From: Bolinopsis microptera
Lineage: Eukaryota > Ctenophora > Tentaculata > Lobata > Bolinopsidae
Length of the DNA stretch: 55,500 nucleotides
Assembly: GCF_026151205.1 (NCBI RefSeq)
Contig: NC_087083.1
Location: forward strand, 1,738,001 to 1,793,500
Direction of reading: 5' to 3'
The notes below the pieces were generated by a model. That model was not told the DNA's origin, made no database searches, and worked only from the letters and a program-made list of their open reading frames with translations. The position numbers and the translations under genes are program-made. Shown one piece after another: positions 612 through 50,811 of the stretch; the first letter of the stretch is position 1, and each line of letters opens with the position of its first letter.

Positions 612-1101
612 GTGATGTTACAGGAAGTAGGAACATTGCATACATTGCATACTCTTTGTTTTATATTATTAAATATTTGTTTTATTAAAATTATCTATCA
701 AATAATTGCAAAAATGAATCTTCATTCGAAAAAATTAACATGAATTTTCTTTGATTGGATATATTCCACGAATGAGTGATAATAGCAAGTCATAACAATA
801 TAATCTTAATCAGGCACTCACTGACTGAGCTATAAAGGCCAATGTATGTTGACTGACCTTTGGTGTTCATTTTAATGTCCGTTCAAAATTATTAATAACT
901 TCCAATGAAGTAGCTAGGACTAGCTACACAAACTGTGGCCGTAAGTGATTTGAGTTATCAATAACTTATTACAAGTTAGAATAACTTATTTAACTCGATT
1001 CAATTGCAAAAAACCTTGTGCAAAAAAGTGCACACGCCACAGTTCCCTACTATAATACAAGTAATAAATTGGACCTTAAAAAATTACAGAACTCACCACA
1101 G
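612..1101. other. No gene seen; AT-rich flank of the kringle gene
   Basis: AT-rich sequence without a recognisable coding exon. From about 896 it is the lower-coordinate edge of the duplicated kringle segment (compare 2090-2262), sharing blocks such as GCCGTAAGTGATTTGAGTTA. If the kringle gene ends at the stop at 1102-1104 this would be its 3' region, but I see no AATAAA close by on the minus strand. Confidence 0.5.
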
Positions 1102-1763
1102 TTAATTACCACATGTAGGTATATCACAGACTTCCCATCGAGGACTAGTTCCATCAGCATTATAACACCAGGCGAATGGTTCACTGAGGAAAATAATGAC
1201 ATCTGTTAAAATGGAAAATTTCAGAAAAGAAATTTCATAGATCATTTATATTTCCAAATCCATCTTCATTGCAATTTTGTGTAGATTTTATTTTATAAAT
1301 GTTTGTGCCCATACCTTGTGGTCGACTTAATGACAATAATTATGGAACACTACCAGATATTGAAAACTTACCCGTCTGGATTTCTGCAATAGTTCTCTTG
1401 CAGTCCTGAATTAGGGTACCTGAAAATGTTTTTATGATGAGGTCTTTTCCTAAAATATTATAATTATACTTATGTGGGTAAACAGAGTGATTATTATCAA
1501 TATACCATCTGCAAAGTTACCATGATGGTCTCAAACATAAAAAAGAATAAATCCAAATAAGAAGCAACAAGAAAAAGTTTGGATAACTTTAGAAGTGTAG
1601 AACGGTTTAAAAAGCAACAAGAAAATTTACTTCGATGGAGTAACACCATGGATGTTAGGTGATTGAGAGTCCCATTTCTGGCATTTGTGTCCTGATTTTG
1701 TGACAGCTACCTTTCCCCTGTACTCTGATCCATCATTGTCTGCACTGTCAACACAATCTGGTT
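1102..1763 (-). other. Exons encoding kringle 2
   Basis: Three exons: 1763-1631 (CTGCAG acceptor, ends TCGAA before GTAAAT), 1419-1372 (TTTTCAG acceptor, GTAAGT donor) and 1183-1110 or 1102 (TTCCTCAG acceptor). The third exon encodes AWCYNADGTSPRWEVC and keeps the Trp and the Arg-Trp pair (R281-W282) that line the lysine-binding groove in plasminogen-type kringles. The acidic pair is D then E (PDGE) rather than D-x-D. Lysine binding is therefore possible but not shown. Confidence 0.85.
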
Positions 1764-4700
1764 CTGCAGGGAGTGGAACAAGAGCTAATCCATTGGTTAT
1801 TCTTTTTGGAAACATTGTTATAGAAAAAACAAGAACAGTTTCTCGCTTACAATAGTGATTAGTGAGGTATATTGGGGTTTGCAGTGAATTGGGACGCATT
1901 AAATCGGGTATCTCAGTATCTGTGTATCAGGTGCGGTAAAGGCGACCAAGTAATCAGTGGACAGTGTTAATATTTAATAACGCAGTAACTGTTTGAGAAT
2001 GTATATTATTTTTCAGTGGCTGTCTGATTTTATCTCAAGAGTCCATGCAGACATTTTCAGACCTCTAGTTCATTTGAGAAGGGCGTGGCCGAGCCTCATA
2101 ATGTTCAAACATATTCTAGTGGCAAAGCTGGGACTAGGTACACAAACTGCAGCCGTAAGTGATTTGAGTTACCAATAACCTATTTAACTCGATTCTGTAT
2201 ACACGTACGCCGCACATCGCTGCTATATGAGTATTTAGTTTGAACATCAAAAGACCGTTTACCAGGGCAAGTAGGTATAGCACAGAGCTCAAATCGAGGA
2301 CTAGTTCCCTCAGCATTATAACACCAGGCGCCTGGTTCACTGAGGAAAATAATGACATCTGTTAAAATGGAAAATTTCAGAAAAGAAATTTCATAGATCA
2401 TTTATATTTCCAAATCCATCTTCATTGCAATTTTGTGTAGATTTTATTTTATAAATGTTTGTGCCCATACCTTGTGGTCGACTTAATGACAATAATTATG
2501 GAACACTACCAGATATTGAAAACTTACCCGTCTGGATTTCTGCAATAGTTCTCTTGCAGTCCTGAATTAGGGTACCTGAAAATGTTTTTATGATGAGGTC
2601 TTTTCCTAAAATATTATAATTATACTTATGTGGGTAAACAGAGTGATTATTATCAATATACCATCTGCAAAGTTACCATGATGGTCTCAAACATAAAAAA
2701 GAATAAATCCAAATAAGAAGCAACAAGAAAAAGTTTGGATAACTTTAGAAGTGTAGAACGGTTTAAAAAGCAACAAGAAAATTTACTTCGATGGTGTTAC
2801 ACCATGTATGTTAGGTGATTGAGAGTCCCATTTCTGGCATTTGTGTCCTGATTCTGTGACAGCTACCTTTCCCCTGTACTCTGATCCATCATTGTCTGCT
2901 CTGTCAACACAATCGTCTGGAAGTGGAGTGGGAGATAATCCATTGGGTATTCTTTTTAGAAACATTGTTATAGCAAAAACAAGAACAGTTTCTCGCTTAC
3001 AATAGTGAATAGTGAGGTATATTGGGGTTTGCAATAAATTGGGGCGCATTAAATCGGGTATTTGTGAATCAGGCGCGGTAAAGGCGACCAAGTGATCAGT
3101 GGACAGTGTTAATAACGCAGTATAACTGTTTGAGAAACTATATGATTTTTCAGTGGCTGAATCCGCTTTATCAACACAATCGTCTCCCGTTGGAGTTTCT
3201 TCAGATAACCTTGTGACGCTTTGAGGCACTGATGCACTCAAGGCACCACTCTGAGGCCCTTGAAGCACAACTTTGAGGCCCTTGAAGCACCAGTTTTGAG
3301 GCAGTGAGGCACCTGAGGCAACAATTTGCAACACTTCATGCATCGTACAGGGTTAGAAACATAACATGATGATTAAATGGCTTGATTTCGTGACTAACAA
3401 GACCACTCAGTTAGATAACAGTTATTATAAATAAGTATGGCAGTTAATTGTCGTCATAAAACCAATATTTGGTCCATGACTGTTGTTTTGCTCAACATGA
3501 ATCACTCGAAAAACTTATTCAACTATTAAGATCGAAAGTTATACTCTTATTCACTCGACAATCACGTGACTTATACTTTAACACGTTCTCTAAGTGTTTC
3601 TTAGTGACTATTCAAAACTTTATCAGCTTATCCCTCTAATCTGACTCCAGCCCTAACCCTAGCCATTAAGCAAGATGCTTCATCTTACTGTATGTCTGCT
3701 TTAAACGAAACTAGAGTTATAGGAGTATATCTGAGGACAAGACATTGATGAGATGATTACTACCAACAAGGGTCATCTTTAAGTATGAAGCTGTTTTAGT
3801 TTACTGTTCTTAGATTTAAAAAATTGTAAATAAAGAAAGTTGAGATGAAATGAAAAGTAAGTTGAGTTTAGTTTATAATAAATCTTCAGCCGTATTAAAT
3901 GAGCGTGCCTTCCATTTTAAAGTAGTGAGACATAAAAAGACTCGAATCGTTTTTATAGACTCAGTTGGTCTGATCAATAATTTTGTTAACTCACTAATTT
4001 CAGTAATAGGAGGCTTAGTTATCCACCAAGGCTCTTCTGAAAATACATTCAATCAAACTTGATTTTTGACAAAACAACAACTTTTCCATTTTCAAATCAA
4101 TTTTACACCATGAAGGAGTAATTTTATTCAAAATCTGAGGAAATTTGTAGGTTAGTATTTATAGATATTTGTTCAAACATTCTGAAAATCTACCGGAAAG
4201 GTTTTCTACCTTGAACCTAGTGCTTTTTTGAAGAATAATTTTATAAAAACACAAAAGTTGTGATTTATTATTCTCTGGTGTTTGGCCATTCCTTGGGTTT
4301 TGGAGCTTAATTTGCTTCCTGAAGGTCTAAACTGTGTAACAGGCTAGTTTTAATGTTGAAAATCGAAAAGTTGCACACGTGAGGACACGCCCGAAGCTTT
4401 TTAAACTATTACAATTGTAAATGAATCGGAAAAGTGAGCGACCGATTTCATTCTCGGTATAATAAATCTGCATTTGCGGACAGTTTTTCAGATTAATATC
4501 ATTTCCTTTTGTTTGATAGAGAGAGAGAGACACTGTTGCGATCCACTCTACCCATGATTATGGGTTTTAGTCAAATAAATTGTGAAAAATATGTATATCT
4601 TACCTGGTGACTGAAGTGAGATACACAAGTCATAGTCGCATGTTTGATATGAACACTTATACTCCGTCATATCGTTCAAAATATGGGCAAATTCAGATTT

Positions 4701-5310
4701 TGATTCCCTACATGTATCCAAGTCTGCCCACACATCTGCCCGGTTCATACATTTATAACTTTTCATATAGCCGAACCTGGCACCCTCATAAAAGGTCACC
4801 TCAAGAGCTGAGCACACTTCACCCTCCGAACACTAAAAAAAGACAATTTTATTATTTATCACCAATTTATCACACAATCTATCAATAAATATACATTCGA
4901 ATAAATAATACCCAACTAAATTTTGGCCCTAGATGCTTAGATGGTAAGATATTAGCGGTCGTTCTCATATTACGCAATCACTTTTTTGACCCCCCTCCCC
5001 CTTCCGTAATCAGTTTTACACATATCTAGTGTATCAAGATTACACTAGCGTAATCATTTGGAAACCACCTCCCCCCTCGGCTGATTACGTAATAATATAT
5101 GTGAACGACCACCTATTATAAATATACTTGAGTGGAATAAATGCATACGCTTATACGCTAGCAGCTAGCTGGTTATACCTGATCAACGCTGTCTGAGTCA
5201 CAGGTATTTGTAGCCCCTGATTCCAAACTTACGTCTCTGCACCCATGGTAACAATCAAGCGATTGAGCTCGTGCCACCATTGCCACTATTATAGCTATTG
5301 CTATATTCAT
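1102..5310 (-). CDS. Secreted Ly6/uPAR-kringle-kringle protein, eight exons
   Basis: Joined by eye from GT-AG exons on the minus strand: 5310-5179, 4832-4604, 2916-2787, 2575-2528, 2339-2263, 1763-1631, 1419-1372 and 1183-1102 (TAA at 1104-1102). The pieces sum to 879 nt, exactly 293 codons, and every junction keeps phase. Residues 1-17 are a signal peptide (MNIAIAIIVAMVARAQS). Residues 19-118 hold ten cysteines (LDCYHGC at the start, YKCSYQTCDYDLC at the end), the Ly6/uPAR three-finger pattern. Residues 123-204 and 209-290 are kringles with six cysteines each, the YRG, GHKCQKW, NYCRNPDG and AWCYNA signatures, and family-typical length. The likely role is extracellular binding; no protease domain is present. 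The last exon may end at the stop or splice on at a GTAATT donor after 1110. Exon calls are inferred without transcript support, but the phase agreement is strong. Confidence 0.85.
2263..2916 (-). other. Exons encoding kringle 1
   Basis: Three exons: 2916-2787 (CTTCCAG acceptor), 2575-2528 and 2339-2263 (donor CCTG before GTAAAC). The first exon starts in phase 1, matching the phase-1 donor of the Ly6 exon at 4604. The third exon donates in phase 1 to the first exon of kringle 2. This kringle reads PRFELC where its partner reads PRWEVC, so one groove aromatic is Phe. The 48-bp middle exon is identical to its partner at 1419-1372. Confidence 0.85.
3140..3215 (-). pseudogene. Remnant of a further kringle exon
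   Basis: On the minus strand the piece GACGATTGTGTTGATAAAGC matches the start of the kringle exon at 2916, including the residues DDCVD. The sequence before it also resembles the intron before that exon. The similarity stops after about 15 codons, the polypyrimidine tract and donor are poor, and the rest of the kringle is missing. It lies in the intron between the Ly6 and kringle 1 exons. I read it as a truncated third copy. Confidence 0.5.
4058..4585. repeat. Partial dispersed repeat with one palindrome arm
   Basis: Matches the repeat unit seen at 12300-12640 and in the array after 42.5 kb (TTGATTTTTGACAAA, then TCTGAAAATCTACCGG). It then joins one arm of the foldback repeat (GCGAGCGACCGATTTC to CCCATGATTATGGGTTTT). 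Only one arm is present, so it cannot fold like the others. It sits inside the intron between the Ly6 and kringle exons. Confidence 0.75.
4604..5310 (-). other. Exons encoding signal peptide and Ly6/uPAR domain
   Basis: Exon 1 (5310-5179) starts at ATG with a hydrophobic leader and then LDCYHGC; it ends GATCAG before GTATAA in phase 0. Exon 2 (4832-4604) follows a TTTTTTTAG acceptor, begins TGTTCG in phase 0 and ends CCAG before GTAAGA in phase 1. The ten cysteines split three and seven between the exons, and an intron within a Ly6 domain is usual for this family. No GPI-anchor-like hydrophobic tail follows; the phase fits splicing into the kringles. Confidence 0.85.
4957..5110. mobile_element. 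Short MITE with GGTCGTTC inverted ends
   Basis: A 154-bp element with imperfect inverted ends. The left begins GGTCGTTCTCATATTACG; the right, reverse-complemented, begins GGTCGTTCACATAT and reaches ATTACGTAATCA. The middle holds two C-rich tracts and the piece CCGTAATCAGTTTTACACAT, shared with the repeats near 27550 and 35950. It lies in intron 1 of the Ly6-kringle gene. No clear target duplication is seen. Confidence 0.65.
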
Positions 5311-17342: not shown

Positions 17343-17835
17343 TCGGTTACTTATACTATGACCCTGCTATCACATAACGTGTTGACATATTGTGTCACCT
17401 TGGTAACATGAGCTACCTTGGTAACATGATCTGCCTTTGTAACATGAGCTGCCATTATCTAAAACGTATTGTGGGAAGCGAAGCTCAAATTAACAGTTAT
17501 ACTGAAGCTTCAGTTTTCAGATCACTTCTAATAAATGTTAAGGAGATTAAGTTTCGTAGTTTAATAGCTTTTTTGTGTCTTTATAATATCAGCATCCGAA
17601 TACCTTATTAACAATAAGTTGAACCTGTTTCAAATTAAATAACCATATTCGCTTCTTTTCAATTTTCTGGGTTACTACCAACACTTTTAAAAAGCTTGTT
17701 TCTTCCTGATGTCACCAAAGCGAAAAGCTCTTCAAATAATTACACTGAAATTTAGATCTCGAACTTGTATTAATTTTGTTTTCTAGTGACGATTGTTAAG
17801 CGGAACTTCTGTACTGTCGTTAACTTTTTAGTAAA
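17343..17835 (+). promoter_or_regulatory. Shared upstream block of zinc-finger gene 1
   Basis: From TCGGTTACTTATACTATGAC to the ATG this sequence is conserved upstream of all three zinc-finger copies (17343, about 29455, about 32572). Landmarks are GCTACCTTGGTAACATGAGC-type repeats, GTGGGAAGCGAAGCTCAAA and TTTTCTAGTGACGATTGTTA just before the coding frame. It probably holds the promoter and 5' leader, inferred only from conservation and position. Confidence 0.4.
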
Positions 17836-19170
17836 ATGGAGCAGCAAAATGCTCCAGACTTTAAAAATGAGATGAAGATGGAAGAAGAAAGTATTTCACC
17901 GGAATTGATCAAGACAGAGATTAAGAAGGAGGAAGAGAATTTTCTTATTAAATCAGAAGTGTATTCAAATGCAGTGTCTCAGTTGGATTGTCCCAACCAA
18001 GAATCAGCATTGCTTCGCTACCAGTGGGTGCATCCTAATAAAAATGCTTACATTCGCTCTGAATGTTCCTTCAATGCAAGCAAAAAAACAGCTTTATTTT
18101 CACATCAACGGACTCATACCGATGAAAAACCGTATAAATGCTCTGAATGTTCCTACAGTGCAAGCGTAAAATCAAACTTAGTCCGCCATCAGATGACTCA
18201 TACCGGTGAAAAACCATATAAATGCTCCGAATGTTCTTACAGTTCAAGCCGAAAAGGAAACCTAGTCAGTCATCATATATCTGATCATACCAGTGAAAAA
18301 CCGTTTAAATGCTCTGAATGTTCCTACAGTGCAAGCTTAAAACGAAACCTAGTTAAACATCAGAGGACTCATACCGGTGAAAAACCGTATAAATGCTCCA
18401 AATGTTCCTTTAGTACTGGCTGGAAATCAACCCTGGTTGGACATCAGATGACTCATAGCAGTGAAAAACCGTATAAATGCTCTGAATGTTCCTAAAGTTC
18501 AATCCGAAAATCATACCTAGTTAAACATCAGAGGACTCATACCGGTGAAAAACCGTATAAATGCTCCGAATGTTCCTACAGTGCAAGCTTAAAACAATAC
18601 CTAGTTAAACATCAGAGGACCCATACCGGTGAAAAACCGTATAAATGCTCCGAATGTTCCTTTAGTACTGGATGGGACTCAAGCCTGGTTATACATCAGA
18701 TGACTCATACCGGTGAAAAACCGTATAAATGCTCTGAATGTTCCTACAGTGCAAGCTCAAAACAAAACCTAGTTAAACATCAGAGGACTCATACCGGTGA
18801 AAAACCGTATAAATGCTCCGAATGTTCCTACAGTGCAAGCTCAAAACAAAACCTAGTTAAACATCAGAGGACTCATACCGGTAGTGTTGGAGGACCCATT
18901 TTTGTTAAGCCTCTACCTTTCGTGAAGCCACTCACATTTGGAAAGCCTCTGAACTTCTATGACCCCTATCTTTCCAGTTCCAGCTTACCTCCCAGTTCCT
19001 TCTCCAGTCACCTACCAGAATCTCACAAGCCTCACCCTGCAGCTCCTCTCACCTTCTCACCTGGTGAATCTGTTTTCACACCTGCTCCCACTGTCCCACC
19101 TACCTTATACTCTTCAACATTTCCTTCCCCCTCTCATATTTCCTGCCAGTTCAGCGACCATGGGGCGTAA
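17836..19170 (+). pseudogene. C2H2 zinc-finger gene, copy 1, nonsense codon
   Basis: Member of a three-copy family. The ATG has a good context (AAAATGG). The N-terminus is acidic with several psi-K-x-E sumoylation-type motifs (IKTE, IKKE, IKSE). One degenerate finger (first Cys lost) is followed by nine canonical C2H2 fingers with [12 protein letters not shown] linkers. A TAC-to-TAA change at 18493-18495 stops the frame in the fifth canonical finger. The same frame then runs open to 19170, through the proline-rich tail with repeated VKPL-type motifs. A truncated protein of 219 residues with four fingers could still be made. By family the intact protein would bind DNA in the nucleus. One substitution explains the break, so it looks recent. 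Confidence 0.85.
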
Positions 19171-21261: not shown

Positions 21262-21472
21262 TCAAAAAGAACTGGGTTATAAGCCCTCCTTTAGCTTGCA
21301 ACCTACATCGAATCGGGCTTTTGCAGATGACCTAACACTTATGTCCTCCAGACTAGAGAAGGTAAAGTAGCAGATAGAGTTGATGGAGCAGTTTTTGGAT
21401 TGGAGTAGGAAAATGAAGGCCAAGCCTAGCAAGTGTGTCTCCCTGGGAATGAAACAAGTCCACACTCGATTG
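21262..21472 (+). pseudogene. R2-like RT fragment with FADD motif
   Basis: The frame reads ELGYKPSFSLQPTS and then AFADDLTLMSSRLEK, the catalytic FADD of the RT palm, and later WSRKMKAKPSKC, typical after motif C. A TAG at 21368-21370 interrupts it. It runs to CGATTG at 21472, where the first CR1-like insertion begins. The frame continues at 23339. Confidence 0.8.
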
Positions 21473-23334
21473 TAAAATTGAGCCATTGAAAATTGCAAAC
21501 AGCTGCGAAAATTTTACCAGGGCACTAGCTAATGTCATTAACTGTTCGTTCTCCAGTGGTACCTTCCCAAATGCTCTAAAAACTGCGAAAGTCGTTCCTA
21601 TCCACAAAGGTGGTTCAAAATTAGAAGTAGCTAATTATAGGCCGATTTTTCTTTTGGGATCATTCTCGAAAATTTATGAGAAACTTATGCATGCTCGTGT
21701 TTTAGAATTTTTAGATAAGAACGATTCTCTTTTCGAAAATCAATACGGATTTCGGCCAGGAAGATCGTGCGAACATGCACTGCTCAATGCCCAAAATTCT
21801 ATACTACACTCTCTGAATAAGAAACAAATTTCCCTACTGCTCCTGCTCGATTACAGTAAAGCCTTTGACGTGCTTGATCATGAGACCTTGCTTGAGAAGC
21901 TTGACCATTATGGGATCAGGGGAGTCGCGCACGAATGGTTTAGATCTTACCTCTGTAATCGATCTCAATACGTAACTTTAAACGGAACTTGCTCTTCTAG
22001 CATGCCCATAGTTTACGGCGTACCTCAGGGTAGCATTTTAGGACCTCTCTTATTTGTAATTTATATAAACGACCTACCTGGAATTAGTGATTTTGCAAAG
22101 TTCATCCTTTATGCCGACGACGCAAACATATTAATTAGTGGAACCACCCTAGAAGAAATACAATTAAAAGCTAATCAGCTAATTTCACGTCTTGTAGATT
22201 GGGTAGGTGTTAATGGGCTATCTTTAAATGTAAAAAAGACGTGTTTCATGATTTTCACTAGAAAAAGAATAGACTTCAGCGGCTTTAATTTGTCCATTGA
22301 CAACACTGTAATCGAACGTAAGACTGAAGCAAGATTTTTAGGAGTGATCCTAGACGAAAAGCTCACTTGGCAAAAACACATTACGGCCGTTAGAATAAAG
22401 ATGGGTCGCTACCTCGGAGTTATGTATAAGCTAAAGCACCTTCTACCTATCAAAGCCCGCCTAAACATTTTCCAAAGCCTTATCCAATCCCATCTAAATT
22501 TCTGTTCTTTAGTGTGGGGATTTGCCTCAAAATGTCACATTGAATCTCTGTTCACCAAGCAAAAGCAGGGAATTAGAGCTGTTATGTCAGGATATGTAAA
22601 TTATAGATATAAAGACGGCAATCCCCCGGAGCACACAAAAAGTGCGTTTAGATTGCATAATATCCTAACAGTCCATAGCGTCATTGTAAAAAACGCTCTT
22701 ATTCTACTACACAAAGTAAGGAACATGCCAAGCCTTCTCCCTAAATCCATCAAAGAACTTTTCCCTCACGATATTCCCACCTATAATTCCACATACGAAC
22801 ATAACCTTTCTTGGTTCACAACTTACAACGGCCCAACATTTAGAAATACTCTTTTCTTCAAAGGACCCATGCTCTCTATTACAAAACAAAGTAAGGATAT
22901 AACTATTCCAAGTTCTACCTTTTCAATTGAAATCTTTAAAAATTCAGCTAAGCGCGAACTCCTCAAGCTGCAAAGCTCAGGAGACGATGAAAATTGTCCA
23001 AATTTCTTACTTTATAGTATACCTGGGCTAAGAAAGTCTCAAAGAGAAGGGCGCTCGCAAATAGACTACAGCACCGAGTTAGTAAGCGACAACGCGTAAA
23101 GAAAGATCACTCGCGACAAATGACTATGATCTTTTATCAACAACATATCATTTTAATTTCACTGCCATTATGCAGTAATTAGCATGTTTACAAATTGCGA
23201 CTTCAACCAGTTTTGCAGACCGTTAGTTATATAGTACTTTTAGTAGGGCATTTATTTTAATATATTTATTTTACATTATTATATTTTAGTGTGACTTCTA
23301 TAATTTCATTTATGTAATAACCATTGATCAATAA
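21473..23334 (+). mobile_element. CR1-like LINE, 5'-truncated, inserted in the R2-like element
   Basis: The insertion starts at the linker just before the RT domain, the usual 5' truncation of LINEs. It ends in an AT-rich 3' region. ATTG stands at both borders (21469-21472 and 23335-23338). Removing the insert joins CGA TTG to CGG CAC in the host frame. The protein is close in sequence to that of the LINE at 48967-50811. Confidence 0.8.
21486..23099 (+). CDS. CR1-like reverse transcriptase (truncated ORF2)
   Basis: The frame holds RT motifs in order: KVVPIHKGGS (residues 36-44), NYRPIFLL, YGFRPGRSCEHA, motif A LDYSKAFDVLDH (121-132), motif B YGVPQGSILGP (177-187) and catalytic YADD (209-212). 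A thumb-like region and a C-terminal extension follow. The endonuclease and ORF1 are absent because of 5' truncation; the frame has no true start codon (it opens at TTG). No stop codon breaks it, so insertion was fairly recent. Not expected to be active alone. Confidence 0.88.
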   Translation: MKIANSCENFTRALANVINCSFSSGTFPNALKTAKVVPIHKGGSKLEVANYRPIFLLGSFSKIYEKLMHARVLEFLDKNDSLFENQYGFRPGRSCEHALLNAQNSILHSLNKKQISLLLLLDYSKAFDVLDHETLLEKLDHYGIRGVAHEWFRSYLCNRSQYVTLNGTCSSSMPIVYGVPQGSILGPLLFVIYINDLPGISDFAKFILYADDANILISGTTLEEIQLKANQLISRLVDWVGVNGLSLNVKKTCFMIFTRKRIDFSGFNLSIDNTVIERKTEARFLGVILDEKLTWQKHITAVRIKMGRYLGVMYKLKHLLPIKARLNIFQSLIQSHLNFCSLVWGFASKCHIESLFTKQKQGIRAVMSGYVNYRYKDGNPPEHTKSAFRLHNILTVHSVIVKNALILLHKVRNMPSLLPKSIKELFPHDIPTYNSTYEHNLSWFTTYNGPTFRNTLFFKGPMLSITKQSKDITIPSSTFSIEIFKNSAKRELLKLQSSGDDENCPNFLLYSIPGLRKSQREGRSQIDYSTELVSDNA

Positions 23335-24689: not shown

Positions 24690-27013
24690 TTACTTACTTG
24701 GGTTACTTGGGTTGGGTTCCGAGCTAGAGTGCTACCAGGCCAAGAATGTCTTGCATCTCCACCGCCATGTAGTAGCGTGTCAGAGACACGTGCCACCGGC
24801 CCACTCCAGCATTGAGTTCCTGTTCTGTCCAGTGTACCCAGGTGTTGGTGGAGTGTCAGGGAATTCATTGAGGAAAGCATCAAGAGCGGGTTTGAAAGTG
24901 GTCAAGGTCAGGAGGGACTTGATGGCGGGAGGGACCACGTTGTACAGTGCAGAGGCTCTAGAGGCAAAGGAGTTGAACCTCAGGTTATTGACACTTGTGT
25001 ACTTGGAGGACCCTAGTGGTCGTATACACGTAGTTCCGTATCGTGAGGTCTCGCGGAAGTTGATGTTCATGCTGTTTGGAGCGAGATTGTTATAGATCTT
25101 CCAAACTAGGATGATAGTGTATCTCTCACGCCGCCTTTGAAGGGAGTACATAGACAGGCGACGGAGGCGTTCCCAGTAGTTGAGATTTCCAAGACCCTGG
25201 ATTTTAGCAGTGAAGGATCGTTGAACTGCTTCGAGTTTAATAATTTCGCACTGCATGTGAGGAGACCACAGAGGACAGCAGTATTCAAGATGAGATCGTA
25301 CGTAGGACTTGTACAGGAGCATCATGGTCGCTACATCCCTGGAGATGAAGGTGCGTAGCACCCAACTAGCCATGTTTCTGGCTTTGGCAGACTTCATCGC
25401 TATGTGAGTGCGCCAGTTGAGGTCTGGGTCGATATAGACACCCAGGTCCTTCACGTGGTCAGAGCCCTTAAGAGTCTCTCCAGATGGTAAGATGTAGGGC
25501 TGCTTCAAGTCCGGTAGTTTGCCGTGTTGTAGAAGCTGGAACTTTTCCTCGTTAAGCTCCATGTTGTTAGCATCAGCCCAATTTACAACCGAGAGAAGAT
25601 CTTCTTGGAGAAGGATGCGATCGATATGGGAAGATATATCTTTGTGGAGCTTCGAGTCATCTGCAAACACTTTGATCTTGCTGTGCTTGACTACGGAGAA
25701 GATGTCGTCAATGTAGATGAGGAAGAGAAGGGGACCTAGGACAGTACCCTGAGGAACCCCACTGATGACGTCGATGATCGTGGACATGACCCCATCCACG
25801 ATAACATGCTGCTTTCTGCCAGTAAGAAAGCTGGCTATCCAGTCGTAGAGCTTACCACGGATACCAAAGGCCTGAATCTTCTTGAGGAGTATCTTGTGGT
25901 CAACCTTATCAAAGGCTTTGCTGAAGTCGAGGTAGAGCACGTCAGCATTTTTGTCGAGGTTGAGATCGCAGATTATATCCTCGATGTGATGGAGAAGCTG
26001 GGTGAGGCAGTTCTTGCCTTTTTGGAAACCGTGCTGATCAGGGTTGAACATGTTGTTGCGTTCAAGGAAGCTGACCATCTGGTTGCGCATGATGCGTTCA
26101 CAGAGTTTGATGAGGTGAGAAGTCAGTGAAACCGGCCTGTAGTTAGCGGCTACAGCCTTGCTCCCCTTCTTGAAGATAGGGATGATACTCTGGGAGCGGA
26201 ACATCTCAGCGATGTCCGAAGTATCAAAAGATAGCTGCCAGAGCTTGGCTATAGTGGGAGCTAGAGCGTCCTTGCATTCCCGCAAGATGAGAGCAGGGAA
26301 CTTGTCTGGTCCTGGAGCGGAGAACCTCCCTGTTTCCTTGATAGCACTAAGGACGTCGTCAACCGAGAAGGTGATGTCGGAGAGTTCTTCTGTATGCCCT
26401 TTTTCGTCAGGGGTGTTATCGGGGTTGACGTTTTCAGGGTTACTGAAGGCTTTCTGGTACTGCTTCTGGAGGATGTTGCCCATAACAGTGGGATCGCACT
26501 GCAGGTTGTTAGCATCATCGGCGAGAGGTCCAACAGGCGCCTTGAACTTAGCTGATTTCTTAGCGTAAGAATAAAACGCCTTGGGATTGATCTTCATCTT
26601 AGCTAGCGCAGCAATTTCCTGTCGGAGCCGTTCTTGTTTGATGTCTTCCTTCATAAGAATTTCGATGTTAGCACGTTCGTTGTTGAGGTTATCGAGTTTA
26701 GTGCTGTTCCGTGGAGTTCTAACACCATGCTTTATAGCATTGATCCTGGCATTAAGGCGGCGCTTCTTACGAATAAGTTCCCTTCTGGGCTTGGGAATGG
26801 AGGATTGTGAGGACAATTGGATGTTAGTGCTGTGCGAGGGAGCGTGCTTAGAGCATATGAACGCTACCTTGTCTTCAAACAATGTCCAAGCTGTATCCTG
26901 ATCGTTGCTTGGGTCAGTGATAGAAGCCCAGTCTACTTCTAGCAGTTCTGCATTAATAGCATCCCAGTCTGCAGAGTTTAAGTTAATGTCATCAAGGAGG
27001 CAGGAGGGGGTGA
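24690..27013 (-). mobile_element. Second CR1-like LINE, 5'-truncated, opposite orientation
   Basis: 2324 bp between two copies of AGTG (24686-24689 and 27014-27017). The 3' end, at the low coordinate, is a short tandem tail of CCCAAGTAA-type units, as CR1-related LINEs have. The 5' end is truncated in the linker between endonuclease and RT. It sits within the RLE domain of the host element. Confidence 0.85.
24780..27011 (-). CDS. CR1/jockey-group reverse transcriptase (truncated ORF2)
   Basis: From the truncation point the frame reads TPSCLLDDINLNSADW, a linker typical after an APE-type endonuclease. The RT domain follows: IIPIFKKGSK, NYRPVSLTS, QHGFQKGKNC, motif A LDFSKAFDKVDH, motif B SGVPQGTVLGP and catalytic FADD. 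The C-terminal part reads DLGVYIDPDLNW, HLEYCCPLWSPH and ends near GYTGQNRNSMLEWAGGTCL. No stop codon interrupts about 740 codons. The start is lost by truncation; the open frame to 27041 runs into host-element sequence. It belongs to a different subfamily from the other two CR1-like copies. Confidence 0.88.
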   Translation of the reverse strand, partial: TPSCLLDDINLNSADWDAINAELLEVDWASITDPSNDQDTAWTLFEDKVAFICSKHAPSHSTNIQLSSQSSIPKPRRELIRKKRRLNARINAIKHGVRTPRNSTKLDNLNNERANIEILMKEDIKQERLRQEIAALAKMKINPKAFYSYAKKSAKFKAPVGPLADDANNLQCDPTVMGNILQKQYQKAFSNPENVNPDNTPDEKGHTEELSDITFSVDDVLSAIKETGRFSAPGPDKFPALILRECKDALAPTIAKLWQLSFDTSDIAEMFRSQSIIPIFKKGSKAVAANYRPVSLTSHLIKLCERIMRNQMVSFLERNNMFNPDQHGFQKGKNCLTQLLHHIEDIICDLNLDKNADVLYLDFSKAFDKVDHKILLKKIQAFGIRGKLYDWIASFLTGRKQHVIVDGVMSTIIDVISGVPQGTVLGPLLFLIYIDDIFSVVKHSKIKVFADDSKLHKDISSHIDRILLQEDLLSVVNWADANNMELNEEKFQLLQHGKLPDLKQPYILPSGETLKGSDHVKDLGVYIDPDLNWRTHIAMKSAKARNMASWVLRTFISRDVATMMLLYKSYVRSHLEYCCPLWSPHMQCEIIKLEAVQRSFTAKIQGLGNLNYWERLRRLSMYSLQRRRERYTIILVWKIYNNLAPNSMNINFRETSRYGTTCIRPLGSSKYTSVNNLRFNSFASRASALYNVVPPAIKSLLTLTTFKPALDAFLNEFPDTPPTPGYTGQNRNSMLEWAGGTCL

Positions 27014-27319
27014 AGTGACCAAGTAGTACGTAAAGAAGCACGCTACAACAGAGAGCTGATTCCTGGCATCGACGGGTGCGGTTGGAAAGCTCTGCTCTTT
27101 ACGGTAGAGATTGGGTGTAGGGGCTTCTGGTACCATACTGTACCAGCTCTATTCAACTACTTTGGATTGGCGAAGAGAACGAAGAATAAAGCCCTGAATG
27201 AGGCTGCTTTGGTCGCTCTTCGATGTTCCTATACAATCTGGTTAGCCCGCGACAACAAGAAATGGTATACCTGCTACGACATCGCAAGGAGGCTAGAAGT
27301 CATAAACTGTGAAAGCTGA
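27014..27319 (+). pseudogene. R2-like element: end of RLE endonuclease
   Basis: Resumes as SDQVVRKEARYNRELIPG, then KALLFTVEIGCRGFWYH, ending with a TGA at 27317-27319. The K-x2-RY and VE(I/V)GCRG features complete the restriction-like endonuclease begun before 24689. About 170 bp of probable 3' UTR follows to 27489, without a clear tail. Confidence 0.85.
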
Positions 27320-29405: not shown

Positions 29406-29971
29406 ACGTGATTACAATATTATAACATAATCACACACTTACACAGATACGCGGTCGGTTACTTAATAAACTATGACCCTGCTATCACATCACGTATTAA
29501 CAGGTGCTACCTTGGTAACAGGTGCTACTTTGGTAACATGAGCTCGACTAACTCTACTTAGGGCGGCTTTAACGTCCGAACAGGTGCTGCCATTATTTAA
29601 GACCTATGGTGGGAAGCGAAGCTCAAACTAACAGTTATATTGAAGCTTTAGTTTTTCGATCACTTCTAATAAATGTTTAGATGATTAAGTTTCGTAGTTT
29701 AATAGTTTTACGTGGCTTTATAATATCAGCATCCGAATACCTTATTAACATTAAGTTAAACCTGTTTCAAATTTGATAACGATATTCGCTTGTTGTAAAT
29801 TTTCTGGGTTACTACCAACACTTTTTAAAAGCTTGTTTCTTCCTGATGTAACCAAACCGAAAAGCTCTTCAAATAAACACTGAAATTTAGATCTCGAACT
29901 TGTATTAATTTTGTTTTCTAGTGACGATTGTTAAACGGAAAATCCTGTACGGTCGTTAACTTTTTAGTAAA

Positions 29972-31471
29972 ATGGAGCAGCAAAATGTTCCAGACTTTAA
30001 AAATGAGATGAAGATGGAAGAAGAAAGTATTTCACCGGAATTGATCAAGACAGATATTAAGAAGGAGGAAGAGAATTTTCTTATTAAATCAGAAGTGTAT
30101 TCAAATGCAGTGTCTCAGTTGGATTGTCCCAACCAAGAATCAGCATTGCTTCGCTACCAGTGGGTTCATCCTAATGAAAATGCTTACATTCGCTCTGAAT
30201 GTTCCTTCAATGCAAGCAAAAAAACAGCTTTAGTTTCACATCAACGGACTCATACCGATGAAAAACCGTATAAATGCTCCGAATGTTCCTTTAGTACTGG
30301 CAGGAAATCAACCCTGGTTAATCACCAGAGGACTCATACCGGTGAAAAACCGTACAAATGCTCCGAATGTTCCTTTAGTACTGGCTGGAAATCAACCCTG
30401 GTTGGACATCAGATGACTCATACCGGTGAAAAACCGTTTAAATGCTCCGAATGTTCCTTTAGTGCAAGCTTAAAACCAAACCTAGTTAAACATCAGAGGA
30501 CTCATACCGGTGAAAAACCGTATAAATGCTCTGAATGTTCCTACAGTGCAAGCTCAAAACAAAACCTAGTTAAACATCAAAGGACTCATACCGGTGAAAA
30601 ACCGTATAAATGCTCCAAATGTTCCTTTAGTACTGGCTGGAAATCAAACCTAGTTAAACATCAGATGACTCATACCGGAGAAAAACCGTATAAATGCTCT
30701 GAATGTTCGCACAGTTCAAGCCATAAATCAGACCTAATTAAACATCAGATGATTCATACCGGTGAAAAACCGTATAAATGCTCCGAATGTTCCTACAGTT
30801 CAAGCCGAAAATCAAACTTAGTTAAACATCAGATGATTCATACCGGTGAAAAACCGTATAAATGCTCTGAATGTTCCCACAGTTCAAGCCATAAATCAGA
30901 CCTAATTAAACATCAGATGATTCATACCGGTGAAAAACCGTATAAATGCTCTGAATGTTCCCACAGTTCAAGCCATAAATCAGACCTAATTAAACATCAG
31001 ATGATTCATACCGGTGAAAAACCGTATAAATGCTCCGAATGTTCCTACAGTTCAATCCGAAAATCAAAACTAAGTAAACATCAGATGAATCATACCGATG
31101 AAAAACCGTATAAATGCTCTAAATGTTCCTACAGTTCAATCCGAAAAACAGACCTAAGTAAACATCAGATGACTCATACCGGTTGTGTTGGAGGACCCAT
31201 TTTTGTTAAGCCTCTACCTTTCGTGAAGCCACTCACATTTGTAAAGCCTCTGAACTTCTATGACCCCTATCTTTCCAGTTCCAGCTTAACTCCCAGTTCC
31301 TTCTCCAGTCACCAACCAGATTCTCACAAGCCTTACCCTGCAGATCCTCTCACCTTCTCACCTGGTAAATATGTTTTCACACCTGCTCCAACTGTCCCAC
31401 CTACCTTATACTCTTCATTATTTACTTCCCCCTATCATATTTCCTGCCAGTTCAGCGAACATCGGGCGTAA
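29972..31471 (+). CDS. C2H2 zinc-finger protein, copy 2 (intact)
   Basis: The only copy of the three without a break: 499 residues from an ATG in good context (AAAATGG). Residues 1-45 are acidic with sumoylation-type sites (IKKE and IKSE; IKTD replaces IKTE), suggesting SUMO-linked repression by analogy. One degenerate finger (RSEC in place of CxxC) is followed by eleven canonical C2H2 fingers with [12 protein letters not shown] spacing. Fingers 6, 8 and 9 are identical in sequence (SHSSSHKSDLIKHQ), showing recent finger duplication. The tail repeats FVKPL three times and is rich in Pro and Ser. By family it is a nuclear sequence-specific DNA-binding protein; no KRAB, BTB or other effector domain is seen. 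Target unknown. Confidence 0.92.
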   Translation: MEQQNVPDFKNEMKMEEESISPELIKTDIKKEEENFLIKSEVYSNAVSQLDCPNQESALLRYQWVHPNENAYIRSECSFNASKKTALVSHQRTHTDEKPYKCSECSFSTGRKSTLVNHQRTHTGEKPYKCSECSFSTGWKSTLVGHQMTHTGEKPFKCSECSFSASLKPNLVKHQRTHTGEKPYKCSECSYSASSKQNLVKHQRTHTGEKPYKCSKCSFSTGWKSNLVKHQMTHTGEKPYKCSECSHSSSHKSDLIKHQMIHTGEKPYKCSECSYSSSRKSNLVKHQMIHTGEKPYKCSECSHSSSHKSDLIKHQMIHTGEKPYKCSECSHSSSHKSDLIKHQMIHTGEKPYKCSECSYSSIRKSKLSKHQMNHTDEKPYKCSKCSYSSIRKTDLSKHQMTHTGCVGGPIFVKPLPFVKPLTFVKPLNFYDPYLSSSSLTPSSFSSHQPDSHKPYPADPLTFSPGKYVFTPAPTVPPTLYSSLFTSPYHISCQFSEHRA

Positions 31472-33023: not shown

Positions 33024-34636
33024 ATGGAGCAGCAAAATGTTCCAGACTTTAAAGATGAGATGAAGATGGAACAAGAAAGTATTTCACCGGAATTGATCAA
33101 GACAGAGATTAAGAAGGAGGAAGAGAATTTTTTATCAAATCAGAAGTGTATTCAAATGCAGTATCTCAGTTGGGTTGTCCCAACAAGGAATCAGCATTGC
33201 ATCGCTACCAGTTGGTTCATCCCAATGAAAATGCTTACATTCGCTCTGAATGTTCCTACAATGCAAGCAAAAAAACAGCTTTAGTTTCACATCAACGGAC
33301 TCATACCGATGAAAAACCGTATAAATGCTCTGAATGTTCCTACAGTGCAAACCACAAATCATCTTTGGTTTGTCATCAGATGACTCATACCGGTGAAAAA
33401 CCATATAAATGCTCTGAATGTTCATACAGTTCAAGCCTAAAATCAAACTTAGTTACACATCAGATGACTCATACCGGTGAAAAACTGTATAAATGCTCTG
33501 AATGTTCCTACAGTACAAGCGTAAAACAAAACTTTGCTCGCCATCAGATGACTCATACCGGTGAAAAACCTTATAAATGCTCTGAATGTTCCTACAGTGC
33601 AAACCACAAATCATCTTTGGTTTGTCATCAGATGACTCATACCGGTGAAAAACCGTATAGATGCTCTGAATGTTCCTTCAGTTCAAGCCGAAAATCAAAC
33701 TTAGTTACACATCAGATGACTCATACCGGTGAAAAACTGTATAAATGCTCCAAATGTTCCTACAGTGCAAGCCAAAAATCAAACCTAAATAAACATCAGA
33801 TGACTCATACCGTTGAAAAACTGTTTAAATGCTCCGAATGTTCCTTTAGTACTGGCTGGAAATCAACCCTGGTTGGACATCAGATGACTCATACCGGTGA
33901 AAAACCATTTAAATGCTCCGAATGTTCCTACAGTACAAGCGTAAAACAAAACTTTGCTCGCCATCAAACGACCCATACCGGTGAAAAACCGTACAAATGC
34001 TCCGAATGTTCCTTTAGTACTGGCTGGAAATCAACCCTGGTTGGACATCAGATGACTCATACTGGTGAAAAACAATATAAATGCTCTGAATGTTCCTACA
34101 GTGCAAGCTCAAAACAAAACTTACTTCAACATCAAAGGACTCATTCCGGTGAAAAACCGTATAAATGCTCCAAATGTTGCTACAGTGCAAGCCAAAAATC
34201 AAACCTAAATAAACATCAGATGACTCATACCGTTGAAAAACCGTATAAATGCTTTGAATGTTCCAACAGTGCAAGCTTAAAACAAAACCTAGTTAAACAT
34301 CAGAGGACTCATAGTCATACCAGTGAAAAACCGTTTAAATGCTCCGAATGTTCCTACAGTTCAATCCAAAAATCAGACCTAAGTAAACATCAGATGACTC
34401 ATACCGGTTGTGTTGGAGGACCCATTTTTGTTAAGCCTCTACCTTTCGTGAAGCCACTCACATTTGTAAAGCCTCTGAACTTCTATGACCCCTATCTTTC
34501 CAGTTCCAGCTTACCTCCCAGTCCCTTCTCCAGTCACCTACCAGAATCTCACAAGCCTCACCCTGCAGCTCCTCTCAGCTTCTCACCTGGTGAATCTGTT
34601 TTCACACCTGCTCCCACTGTTCCACCTACTTTATAG
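33024..34636 (+). pseudogene. C2H2 zinc-finger gene, copy 3, frameshifted
   Basis: Starts at the same ATG as the other copies. One base is missing near 33128-33136 (TTTTTTATCAAAT where copies 1 and 2 have TTTTCTTATTAAAT), which shifts the frame just after the IKKE motif. The finger frame is open from 33146 to 34636 with one degenerate and thirteen canonical C2H2 fingers, but its beginning is not an ATG. A protein starting at a later internal Met would keep most fingers. The tail stops about 20 residues early because TAC became TAG at 34634-34636. Two breaks suggest a pseudogene, although the finger array shows no stop. Confidence 0.8.
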
Positions 34637-39031: not shown

Positions 39032-39979
39032 TTAATCAAAAATTCTTCTGAATAGGGCTGGGATATCTTGGTTGAAGGCTTTCCTCACGGAGGCGTTGTC
39101 TCTTGTCAGTCCGTATCGCTTACACCACATAAATTCTGACAAGGCTACAGTCATGGCTGCTGAATCCGTTCGGGTACGACCGGTTCCTCTTCGCATGTGG
39201 TTCTTAGCGTGGAACCACATCCCTTCGCAGCTGTTGGTGTGAACACCAGTGACCGGGTCCACAAATCCTCGACTATGGTTGACAACTTGATGAGGAAATC
39301 CGTGGTGTTGCAGGGCGTTATAACCTTTCCACTTGTCGGTGAGAATAGTTGTACCCGGTAGAACGTGCTCCTTGATGAGTGTGATTAGGGTGTTGTGATC
39401 GCGTCGATTGCCGGTACACTCCACTAAGAAGCATTCGCCAGTAGTCCTACAGAACCCACCCAGCACCCATTTTCCGACTACACGTCGACCTCTGTTATAT
39501 TTTCGTTTACCGAATTTGGATTCGTCAATCTCCACTATACAGCCGACCCCACCAATCTTTCTACGTGCACCGTTGTCGAACAGGTCTTCAAGCATGCAAT
39601 TTCGGATCGAGGAGAAGATGGACCGTACACAGCCGGTGCTGATGGTTATGATCCGTGCTACGTCGCAGACACTCAGTCGGTTGCAGAACAGCCAGATGAT
39701 GTGGAGGAATACGGAGAAGGGTAGCTTGCGTTTGTGGAGGATACTCCCGGTTCTCACTGAGCAGAAGTGGTCGATGTCTGAAGAAGTGTCTGAACACTGC
39801 CAGCAGTAGCCGTCTGTGTACTTGCTCGTTGGGCATTTCTTCAAGGTCATAAAGTTGTTGCACTCTTCACAAGTTTGGAAAGGTCGCAGCATTCCGATAT
39901 CCAAGCAGTACTGTAGACATTCCGTTTCCGATGATAGTGATCCGCGTCTTAGCTCTTCGTAGGAGGGAAGGGAGTTCAT
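39032..39979 (-). CDS. Merlin-type DDE transposase (ISXO2-like)
   Basis: 315 residues from ATG. A zinc ribbon with C37-x2-C40 and C59-x2-C62 is followed by a helix-turn-helix-like stretch (SVCDVARIITISTGCVRSI, 103-121). The ISXO2-like catalytic core holds D152 (VEIDESKFGKRKYNRGR), D215 (ILTDKWKGYNAL) and E252 (HTNSCEGMWFHAKNHMRRG), the DDE triad expected for the IS1595/IS1016/Merlin group. It catalyses cut-and-paste of its own element at the GGCAACTTG ends. Length is typical and no stop or frameshift is seen. The promoter side faces the 79-bp array shared with the divergent second gene. Confidence 0.93.
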   Translation of the reverse strand: MNSLPSYEELRRGSLSSETECLQYCLDIGMLRPFQTCEECNNFMTLKKCPTSKYTDGYCWQCSDTSSDIDHFCSVRTGSILHKRKLPFSVFLHIIWLFCNRLSVCDVARIITISTGCVRSIFSSIRNCMLEDLFDNGARRKIGGVGCIVEIDESKFGKRKYNRGRRVVGKWVLGGFCRTTGECFLVECTGNRRDHNTLITLIKEHVLPGTTILTDKWKGYNALQHHGFPHQVVNHSRGFVDPVTGVHTNSCEGMWFHAKNHMRRGTGRTRTDSAAMTVALSEFMWCKRYGLTRDNASVRKAFNQDIPALFRRIFD

Positions 39980-40042
39980 GTTGTATCGTTAGATAAAGTG
40001 TTGGTTTGATGGCCTCTATTAATACTATTTGTCACGTGAGCA

Positions 40043-48966: not shown

Positions 48967-50811
48967 TTAAAAGTTGTAAAGGACAAAGTTCTTGTCCGTC
49001 CACGAAAGGTTTTCTAGGTCAAGTTTTTGTTTGTCCAGTAAGTAACGTACAATGTTGTCCTTGTATGAATTAATAAACTTATCTTGTAACTTAGGTACGT
49101 TGAAGGGAAGGATTTTGTTTATTTCGTTTATCGTGTTGTTATATAATCGTGGTCCTACGTTAGAGATGCTATAATCGGTGATCCGTAATCTGTTGAACTT
49201 AATTTCAAAATACTTTGGATTTCTCCTTTCCGTTTGTCTAAGCGGTGATTTTTCAAATATACTACAGATACTCGATGGTGCTACTCCCATATAAACCTTG
49301 TGCATCAAAGTTAGACAGCTTTTAGCAATGAGATTAGGAAGAGCCAAAATTCCTATTTTGTTGAAGATGGATTTTGTGTGAGATGGTAGTTTACGTTTTT
49401 CTTTGTCGTAAAAATAGTTATGATATTCTGAATCAGTGGCGCGAATAGCTTTCTTTTGAGCAGAGAATAAAGACTGAATGGAATTTAAAGATTTAGTACC
49501 CCAAACAGTAGCGCAGTAATACAGGTGAGATTGAATTAAACTATTGTATAGCATTTTTTGAGCTTTATTCGGAATGGAACTTTTAAGTTTCATCATTACG
49601 CCTGCATTTCTGGATATTTTAGTCTTTAACTGTTTAATGTGCTGGCTCCAGCTAAGTTTTGAGTCAATAATGACACCTAAAAATCGTTCATGTTCACTTT
49701 TCACTAGTCGCTGTCCTTCTATACTAATATTTATATCCTCTGGTAATCTGTTAGTGAATATCATGTATTTAGTTTTTCCTACATTAAGTTTAAGACCGTT
49801 GTTTTTAACCCATGTCTGTACAGTATTTAATACTCTGTTTGCACGCATGTTCAGTTCAGTGTACGTGTCGGCAGAAACGATGCTGTTTGCATCATCAGCG
49901 AAGAAAATATAATGGGCTATATCGCTTACATTTGCAAGGTCGTTTATGTAAATAATGAACAATATAGGACCAAGAATGGACCCTTGAGGAACTCCATGTT
50001 CCAATCCCATTTTTTCTGAACTGCAACCGTTGACGTGAACATACTGTTTCCGGTTAGTTAGATAAGACTCAAACCAGGATAAGCTAAGGCCTCTTACACC
50101 ATAGTGCTCCAGCTTATGTAGCAGTATCTCACTGTCTACTAGGTCAAACGCCTTGGAGAAGTCAAGAAGCAGTAATGCTGACACTTGCTTCCTTTCTAGA
50201 GCTTTATGTATGTTAAACTGAGCTTCAAGCAACGCATGTTCACAACTGTGACCCGATCTAAAACCAAATTGCGACGCATATAGAATATTACGTGATTTTA
50301 GGTGCTTTACTAAACGTGCATGCATTATTTTTTCGAATATCTTTGAGAAGCAGGACAAAAGTGAGATTGGTCTGTAGTTTGTAATTTCGCTGCGCGATCC
50401 TCCTTTATGGAGTGGGATAACCTTAGCAAGTTTGAGCTTTTCGGGGAATACTCCTTCGTGAAGGGAGTGTGAGATCAGGTGATTAACTACTGGAGACAGC
50501 ACATTGCAAACCTTTTTAAGAGGCTGTATATTCATATCTGAAGTCGATTTGTTCTTAAGATCATGTATGATTTCAGCAATTTCGGAGGGCGAGGAGTCCT
50601 CCAGCTCCATATCAAAATCACATCGACTTGATTGGGGAAGAGAATGTCCTACTGATCCTGCACCGCGAACCAGATTGTTTTCGCTCTTTAGGTTCTCAGC
50701 TATATTAGTAAAATAATCATTAAAACTGTCAGCTATATCTTGTGAGTCGGTTATAACTCTATTTTTATAGTTTTTTATTAAATACTTTTCAAACTTTACA
50801 GAGTACAGCAA
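48967..50811 (-). CDS. CR1-like reverse transcriptase, separate from its endonuclease
   Basis: About 614 codons. RT motifs in order: FNDYFTNIAENL (30-41), KVIPLHKGGS (130-139), NYRPISLLSCFSKIFEKIMH (145-164), FGFRSGHSCEHALLEAQ, motif A LLDFSKAFDLVD (215-226), motif B HGVPQGSILGP (272-282) and catalytic FADD (304-307). It lacks an ATG near the start: the frame opens at a TTG right after a TAA, and the first residues (KYLIKNYKNRVITDSQDIAD) are the usual linker between endonuclease and RT in one ORF2. So it reads as the 3' half of an interrupted ORF2. Close to the truncated copy at 21486-23099. Confidence 0.9.
   Translation of the reverse strand: MLYSVKFEKYLIKNYKNRVITDSQDIADSFNDYFTNIAENLKSENNLVRGAGSVGHSLPQSSRCDFDMELEDSSPSEIAEIIHDLKNKSTSDMNIQPLKKVCNVLSPVVNHLISHSLHEGVFPEKLKLAKVIPLHKGGSRSEITNYRPISLLSCFSKIFEKIMHARLVKHLKSRNILYASQFGFRSGHSCEHALLEAQFNIHKALERKQVSALLLLDFSKAFDLVDSEILLHKLEHYGVRGLSLSWFESYLTNRKQYVHVNGCSSEKMGLEHGVPQGSILGPILFIIYINDLANVSDIAHYIFFADDANSIVSADTYTELNMRANRVLNTVQTWVKNNGLKLNVGKTKYMIFTNRLPEDINISIEGQRLVKSEHERFLGVIIDSKLSWSQHIKQLKTKISRNAGVMMKLKSSIPNKAQKMLYNSLIQSHLYYCATVWGTKSLNSIQSLFSAQKKAIRATDSEYHNYFYDKEKRKLPSHTKSIFNKIGILALPNLIAKSCLTLMHKVYMGVAPSSICSIFEKSPLRQTERRNPKYFEIKFNRLRITDYSISNVGPRLYNNTINEINKILPFNVPKLQDKFINSYKDNIVRYLLDKQKLDLENLSWTDKNFVLYNF

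Follow-up and report, generated by a model that had tools for sequence, protein, structure and literature searches.

A predicted ctenophore gene that joins a Ly6/uPAR-like domain to two kringles, and its dispersed family

The window analysed here is a stretch of 55,500 nucleotides from the ctenophore Bolinopsis microptera (contig NC_087083.1 of RefSeq assembly GCF_026151205.1, forward-strand positions 1,738,001 to 1,793,500). In agreement with a ctenophore source, an ionotropic glutamate receptor of this genome matches the 256-residue PDB chain ML032222a from Mnemiopsis with 212.8 bits, although longer vertebrate kainate receptors head the ranking. The minus strand of the window, from 5310 to 1102 (window coordinates count from the first base of the stretch), carries a locus that probably encodes a secreted mosaic protein, predicted from the sequence to consist of a leader, one Ly6/uPAR (LU)-like domain and two plasminogen-type kringles. 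A previous sequence-only reading had proposed that eight short exons join here with consistent phases into 293 codons. Indeed, rebuilding these exons yields a predicted spliced coding sequence of 879 nucleotides, that is, 292 amino acids and a stop, with GT-AG boundaries at all seven introns and exon entry phases, from 5' to 3', of 0, 0, 1, 2, 2, 1, 2 and 2 (Table 1). The predicted product starts with a hydrophobic leader (MNIAIAIIVAMVARAQS), recognised by reading the sequence, which is followed by a ten-cysteine domain and the two kringles; in the exon model, there is a single LU-like domain and no hydrophobic tail at the C-terminus. Below, L-numbers (L002, L003 and so on) denote paralogous loci elsewhere in the genome, and C1 to C13 in locus coordinates are contig labels, whereas the cysteines of the LU-like domain are numbered C1 to C10.

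Table 1. Features of the LU-kringle gene in the window, in the order of transcription
Feature	Position	Strand	Content and basis
Exon 1	5179..5310	-	Start codon, leader (MNIAIAIIVAMVARAQS) and LU-like domain, cysteines C1-C3; leader little altered in 12 copies
Exon 2	4604..4832	-	Remaining LU-like domain, cysteines C4-C10; phase-1 donor at end
Likely recombination switch	3955..4210	-	Intron 2; similarity to L002 drops from about 98% on the kringle side to about 83-87% on the LU side
Kringle first-exon relic (DDCVDKADS)	3158..3184	-	Within intron 2; retained in L002, L003 and L005
Kringle 1 exon a	2787..2916	-	Exon model and Pfam Kringle
Kringle 1 exon b	2528..2575	-	Exon model and Pfam Kringle
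Kringle 1 exon c	2263..2339	-	Phase-1 donor at end; its flank is similar to the L004 kringle end
Kringle 2 exon a	1631..1763	-	Exon model and Pfam Kringle
Kringle 2 exon b	1372..1419	-	Exon model and Pfam Kringle
Kringle 2 exon c and stop	1102..1183	-	Cys-Gly-Asn-stop, an end common to L002, L003 and L005
AATAAA, possible poly(A) signal	681..686	-	About 420 bases past the stop; read from sequence

The end of the gene at the TAA at 1102 is supported by L002, L003 and L005, which have the identical Cys-Gly-Asn-stop end with the DNA GGTAATTAA. The downstream neighbour, L001 (G000:C12:1731001-1738000), possesses its own leader-like start (by reading) and PAN domains (PAN_1, E = 3.5e-10). The shared kringle-2 end together with this separate PAN gene indicates that the missing protease is not an artefact of the window edge: the window gene stops after kringle 2, and no trypsin-like domain follows the kringles. 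The proposal of a secreted chain without a protease in the same gene is thus backed, at the level of prediction, by the exon phases, the conserved stop and the paralogs. A scan of the window against Rfam at gathering scores gave no match.

The two six-cysteine kringles announced by the sequence-only reading are readily recovered. Pfam Kringle (PF00051) matches the spliced translation twice (166.1 bits against a cut-off of 34.3; whole-protein E = 2.2e-49), and each of the two kringles contains six cysteines. Kringle 2 can be aligned to plasminogen kringle 2, which is among the best PDB matches, and in the PDB alignment the kringles retain NPD-x-E, a W, an aromatic residue after a cysteine, and an R followed by W or F, residues that make up the lysine site of plasminogen kringles. 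The two kringle units consist in part of recent repeats located about 1.15 kb apart (97% identity over 300 bases and 89% over 152). The ratio of nonsynonymous to synonymous substitution rates (dN/dS) in the kringle exons is mixed, from 0 to 1.9 across 15 pairs, with one pair at a bootstrap value of 0.015, so positive selection is not claimed for the kringles. The kringle search of the genome gave 150 scored matches among 345 candidates. Other genes with the same three-exon kringle, L021 (G000:C13:2009500-2018500) and L022 (C3:16869500-16877500), adjoin hevein-like cysteine-rich frames, with a Chitin_bind_1 match in L022 only (E = 1.7e-4, below the cut-off). There are also long open frames with many kringles, at G000:C11:16207723-16212048 (1593 residues), C9:9853582-9855732 (1520) and C11:18181998-18185555 (1346).

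The identity of the ten-cysteine domain is less straightforward. We aligned 12 intact copies, drawn from 19 loci and used also for the selection tests; left out were L002, L015 and L016 (frameshift), L005b (exon 1 at the stretch edge), L011b (a near copy of L011a), L012 (damaged exon-2 start) and the locus on contig C3 at 3.197 Mb. The window copy has ten cysteines in the LU order (eight are present in L010 and L014), and the C1xxC2 ... C9x4C10N framework is found in most of the aligned copies: the C1-x2-C2 spacing holds in 11 of the 12, the window copy alone having C1-x3-C2, and Asn follows C10 likewise in 11, with one extra residue between C9 and C10 in L007. In L010 and L014, C7 and C8 are jointly absent. 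The LU disulfide pattern is 1-5, 2-3, 4-6, 7-8 and 9-10. In LU domains, the two cysteines missing here form the 7-8 disulfide, and Asn follows the tenth cysteine (PMC6600238), so the joint loss indirectly fits the LU 7-8 bond.

Pfam searches only partly sustained the claim of a Ly6/uPAR domain. The ten cysteines and the paralog matches stand, and of the profile checks suggested for the spliced translation that for Kringle was positive, whereas UPAR_LY6 gave no match to the window copy; hence, the Ly6/uPAR label rests on the ten cysteines and the paralogs. Among the 12 members, UPAR_LY6 has matches in eight (best E = 0.018) and QVR in four, sub-threshold wherever a score was given; when six members were scanned singly, UPAR_LY6 covered its full profile in four and QVR in three, and one member had no match of any kind. 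In shuffled controls (12 of the 24 shuffles made per kind were scanned), UPAR_LY6 matched none of the 12 full shuffles and none of the 12 in which the cysteines were kept in place. Three distant copies, L028, L029 and L030, terminate in CN followed by a linker and a hydrophobic stretch and thus appear GPI (glycosylphosphatidylinositol)-like by reading; GPI-anchored Ly6 proteins end in CN and a hydrophobic tail. In the distant copies, Pfam yielded weak QVR matches in two of four and UPAR_LY6 in none of four. A genome search with Pfam UPAR_LY6 gave no match; the controls were equally silent, and hence this is no evidence of absence. For the exon 2 fragment alone, one of five AlphaFold models reached a pLDDT of 80, and the other four were at 39-53.

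Several observations weigh against an LU assignment. Two of the six singly scanned members lack a UPAR_LY6 match, and the top score among those given for UPAR_LY6 is 15.7 bits, compared to the cut-off of 24.8. The window copy carries Ile in place of the Asn that follows C10. A profile of the 12 copies searched against PDB retrieved no LU chain, only three chance-level matches, and Foldseek with the exon-2 model found GPIHBP1, uPAR and TEX101 at E>1 over 30-32 columns, the top matches being unrelated alpha/beta folds; no conclusion about the fold is drawn from this model. Furthermore, C8 and C9 are separated, whereas an adjacent CC is usual in LU domains, and the gene structure differs from the LU pattern of an intron at the loop 2 tip with phase-1 flanks: the window gene has its intron between C3 and C4 (phase 0) and none after the leader, and only the C-terminal flank is in phase 1. 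Given the sub-threshold Pfam scores, the empty PDB search, the indecisive fold search and the differing intron position, we call the domain LU-like.

The window gene belongs to a family scattered over the genome, in which the LU head is also paired with SRCR and Sushi domains. Most kringle and LU matches lie on contigs C1 to C13. Matches to exon 2 occur on six further contigs (C1, C2, C8, C9, C10 and C11). The first genome search returned 36 LU exon matches that correspond, by manual count, to 19 loci, and queries with three paralogs brought in a further six, more distant loci, for 25 LU-type loci in total; among the six, L030 (E = 0.013) and L033 (E = 0.036) are weak, and L031 contains an internal stop. 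Among the 24 loci fetched, five have kringle exons downstream of their LU exons, namely, the window gene, L002, L003, L004 and L005b. Counted on the same strand, kringle exons start at most 3.9 kb downstream of LU exons in 5 of 19 loci, whereas chance alone predicts about 0.3% per locus over 5 kb (binomial p = 4e-9, with the kinship of the copies ignored). Besides the window gene, L003 is an intact LU-kringle gene, L002 has kringle exons downstream of a frameshifted LU part, and L005b, examined exon by exon, has LU before kringle, with the first exon at the stretch edge.

Other members have different partners. The predicted product of L004 (G000:C1:19161000-19165500) combines leader, LU, kringle and SRCR, with the leader and LU encoded in one exon; the SRCR domain is recognised by Pfam (E = 5.3e-11), and the gene stops after it. 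L010 (G000:C10:13016000-13021900) and L014 (G000:C10:3540000-3545300) are predicted to encode leader-LU-Sushi proteins, each with a single Sushi domain (E = 3.6e-8 and 1.3e-8, respectively); L014 stops directly after Sushi, whereas in L010 either a stop comes 10 residues further on or splicing continues. When spliced in silico, L003, L004, L010 and L014 all keep an open frame, with every intron GT-AG and phase 1 after the LU domain. Every between-module join that was tested is a phase-1 intron, and the splice frame is preserved in diverged copies. In L011a, L011b and L013, a stop follows the LU domain. Searches of 2.2-6.7 kb downstream of L005a, L006, L007, L008 and L009, where no Pfam scan was made, found no kringle, SRCR, hevein-like, PAN or Sushi match. 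L015 and L016 (G000:C8, near 16.51 and 18.44 Mb) share an identical frameshift and identical translated exons, possibly as a recent duplication or an assembly duplicate.

Within intron 2 of the window gene, a recombination switch between the LU and kringle exons is likely, judging by the comparison with L002, located about 109 kb away. On the kringle side, the similarity of the two genes is mostly 96-100%, lower at the tandem-repeat joints and at 3751-4000. Most of the LU side shows only 77-86%, the exception being a stretch of 100 bases close to the leader with 94%. The comparison of the window gene with L003, which lies on a different chromosome, gives mostly 80-95% along the whole length. 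In the exon-2 tree, the kringle-bearing copies do not form a single clade (supports from 0.05 to 0.999).

Selection was assessed in 66 pairs from the 12 aligned copies, with 1000 bootstrap resamples, and by comparison with introns in 21 pairs among the 7 loci with alignable introns. In these comparisons, the LU head shows signs of positive selection in many pairs. The dN/dS of the LU part reaches 3.4, and dN exceeds dS at a bootstrap value <0.05 in 31 of the 66 pairs at kappa 2 and in 22 at kappa 1. Between the window gene and L006, dS is 0.107 and dN 0.363, with intron and synonymous divergence of about 0.11-0.15. The proportion of nonsynonymous differences (pN) is higher than intron divergence in 14 of the 21 pairs (Fisher p<0.01). 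By region, the ratio pooled over the seven loci is 2.2 in finger 1, 1.1 in finger 2, 2.4 in finger 3 and 3.5 in the tail, with a pN of 0 at the cysteine codons. The leader differs from that of the window gene by a dS of 0 to 0.16 and a dN of 0 to 0.10, dS being 0 in 6 of 11 pairs, and one copy in the seven-locus comparison has an insertion in the leader.

The case for selection has its own counterweights. Only 5 of the 21 pairs show pN above the synonymous proportion (pS) at Fisher p<0.05, and 14 of the 21 have an exon pS that exceeds the divergence of their introns, so the excess over introns may partly reflect exchange of exon segments between copies or homogenisation of introns. Pooled over seven loci, pN in the leader (0.054) is low yet higher than pS (0.021). 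The window gene and L003, its nearest relative in the tree, give a dN/dS of 1.0, and L003 and L007 give 0.66; moreover, the pairs share history and are not independent. Finally, L002, L015 and L016 contain frameshifts, and thus some of the copies are probably dead.

Alternative readings of the gene structure have to be considered. Two adjacent genes might have been read as one, namely, a self-contained LU gene that ends in a stop of its own and a kringle gene that starts from a separate first exon: past the donor, exon 2 can be read on in frame for about 18 residues, five LU copies are without a kringle within the stretch fetched, and a 189-residue open frame runs into kringle exon a. However, the frame before this exon has no leader-like start (by reading), the LU donor and the kringle acceptor are in phase in L003 and L004 despite length differences at the joint, and L010 and L014 join the same LU donor to a Sushi exon, again in phase; we regard two genes as quite improbable. 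It also appears unlikely, although slightly less so, that the ten cysteines belong to a cysteine-rich domain peculiar to ctenophores, which merely resembles Ly6/uPAR. Such an origin would be compatible with the lack of any scored profile match above the curated cut-off, with the PDB profile search that produced no LU chain, and with the exon-2 fold search, in which the LU matches were short, lacked significance and were scattered among numerous unrelated folds. Nevertheless, UPAR_LY6 and QVR recur across whole profiles in the paralogs, UPAR_LY6 is found in 0 of 24 shuffles, and the C9x4C10N motif, the joint loss of C7 and C8 and the GPI-like copies all agree with LU.

With a single LU-kringle gene as the preferred structure, its functional status and use can be weighed. 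The excess of amino acid changes could result from relaxed constraint in decaying copies after duplication, the window gene itself being functionless. The frameshifted loci, the dN/dS of 1.0 against L003, and the missing Asn after C10 and extra residue between C1 and C2 in the window copy would fit such decay. Against it, dN/dS is well above 1, rather than near 1, in many pairs, the cysteine codons are unchanged across seven copies and the leader is little altered, and the window gene, L003 and L004 have all retained their open frames and splice signals, which makes a decaying family hard to credit. Prey capture or a toxin-like tentacle secretion, instead of defence, is a more serious contender, albeit a rather unlikely one. 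In toxin families, a little-changed leader precedes a fast-changing domain with a cysteine framework, as is the case here, whereas the fusion of LU to SRCR, Sushi and kringle modules argues in the opposite direction because such fusions are usual in recognition and matrix proteins, unlike small toxins. Ctenophore tentacle cells have been proposed to secrete toxins (PMC6278862), which keeps prey capture under consideration, but the terms Ly6, kringle and three-finger are absent from the main text of that paper.

The sequence-only reading knew of no description of the architecture of the window gene, and in the part of the openly licensed literature that was covered, no LU domain and kringle in one chain was found. 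The LU domain has been characterised as having limited mobility and being rarely mixed with other domains (PMC6600238), contrary to which LU in this genome seems, from the arrangements above, to behave like a mobile module. In the portions of the sources covered, the LU and kringle superfamilies are listed separately (PMC8409312), and kringle is named as an interaction partner of UPAR_LY6 proteins (PMC5993716). Expanded SRCR genes with unusual domain combinations have been reported in ctenophores (PMC11797021); in a figure key of that work, an LY module appears with the C-type-lectin proteins of Mnemiopsis, so that another combination with an LU-type module may already be depicted there, and kringle does not occur in its main text.

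Compared to LU proteins such as CD59, uPAR, GPIHBP1 and those of the Drosophila quiver type, the family is alike in the ten cysteines, the C1xxC2 start and the CN end (11 of 12 copies each), in having secreted or GPI-like members, and in its expansion in the genome. It differs in the fusion to kringle, SRCR or Sushi, in the separation of C8 and C9, in the sub-threshold Pfam scores, and in an intron that is either between C3 and C4 or missing rather than at the loop 2 tip. With the kringles of plasminogen and HGF, the window gene shares the kringle sequence, residues of the lysine-site type, the phase-1 module and the tandem duplication; unlike these proteins, it has no trypsin-like domain, no PAN domain and an LU head. 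An LU component and a kringle component are both present in the uPA-uPAR pair as well. In vertebrates, however, these are two interacting proteins, whereas the window gene encodes one predicted chain without a protease or an anchor, and with one LU-like domain instead of the three LU domains and GPI anchor of uPAR; common origin is not implied. The plethodontid salamander three-finger pheromones (PMF) are similar in being three-finger proteins under positive selection, and the PMF leader and 5' untranslated region have moved between genes through recombination (PMC8904931). PMF are vertebrate pheromones, and the part of that source covered here does not mention a kringle fusion (PMC8904931).

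Taken at face value, the predicted proteins would present a rapidly changing LU head behind a little-changed leader, joined in several members at a phase-1 intron to other modules, namely, one or two kringles, a kringle and an SRCR domain, or one Sushi domain. The LU head might bind a changing partner, such as prey, a microbe, or a gamete or self surface protein, and the kringles could act as adaptors through which the secreted protein attaches to extracellular proteins that bear lysine or belong to the matrix. That sister genes carry Sushi and SRCR partners suggests recognition or defence, and an extracellular role of this kind appears the most likely, although we put it forward with somewhat less than even confidence; the toxin-like use discussed above ranks clearly lower, and a role in reproduction is unlikely. 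The contrast between the little-changed leader and the fast-changing mature domain makes the family a candidate for involvement in an arms race, and it would extend the ctenophore recognition repertoire. More tentatively, LU might be a truly shuffled module, a hypervariable, positively selected head with a constant leader that recombination within introns transfers between kringle, kringle-SRCR and Sushi adaptors. If so, a phylum that has been proposed as the sister to all other animals would have a lineage-specific system of variable recognition, either immune or for self/non-self. With LU joined to kringle, kringle-SRCR and Sushi at phase-1 introns, and with the switch in similarity, LU mobility becomes directly testable.

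Elsewhere in the window, three C2H2 zinc-finger reading frames that contain 84-base repeats neighbour one another (17824-19170, 29960-31471 and 33113-34636). Three reverse-transcriptase-like frames were also detected (21453-23099, 24780-27098 and 48967-50811), along with a transposase-like frame (39032-39988), presumably of the IS1595/Merlin type.

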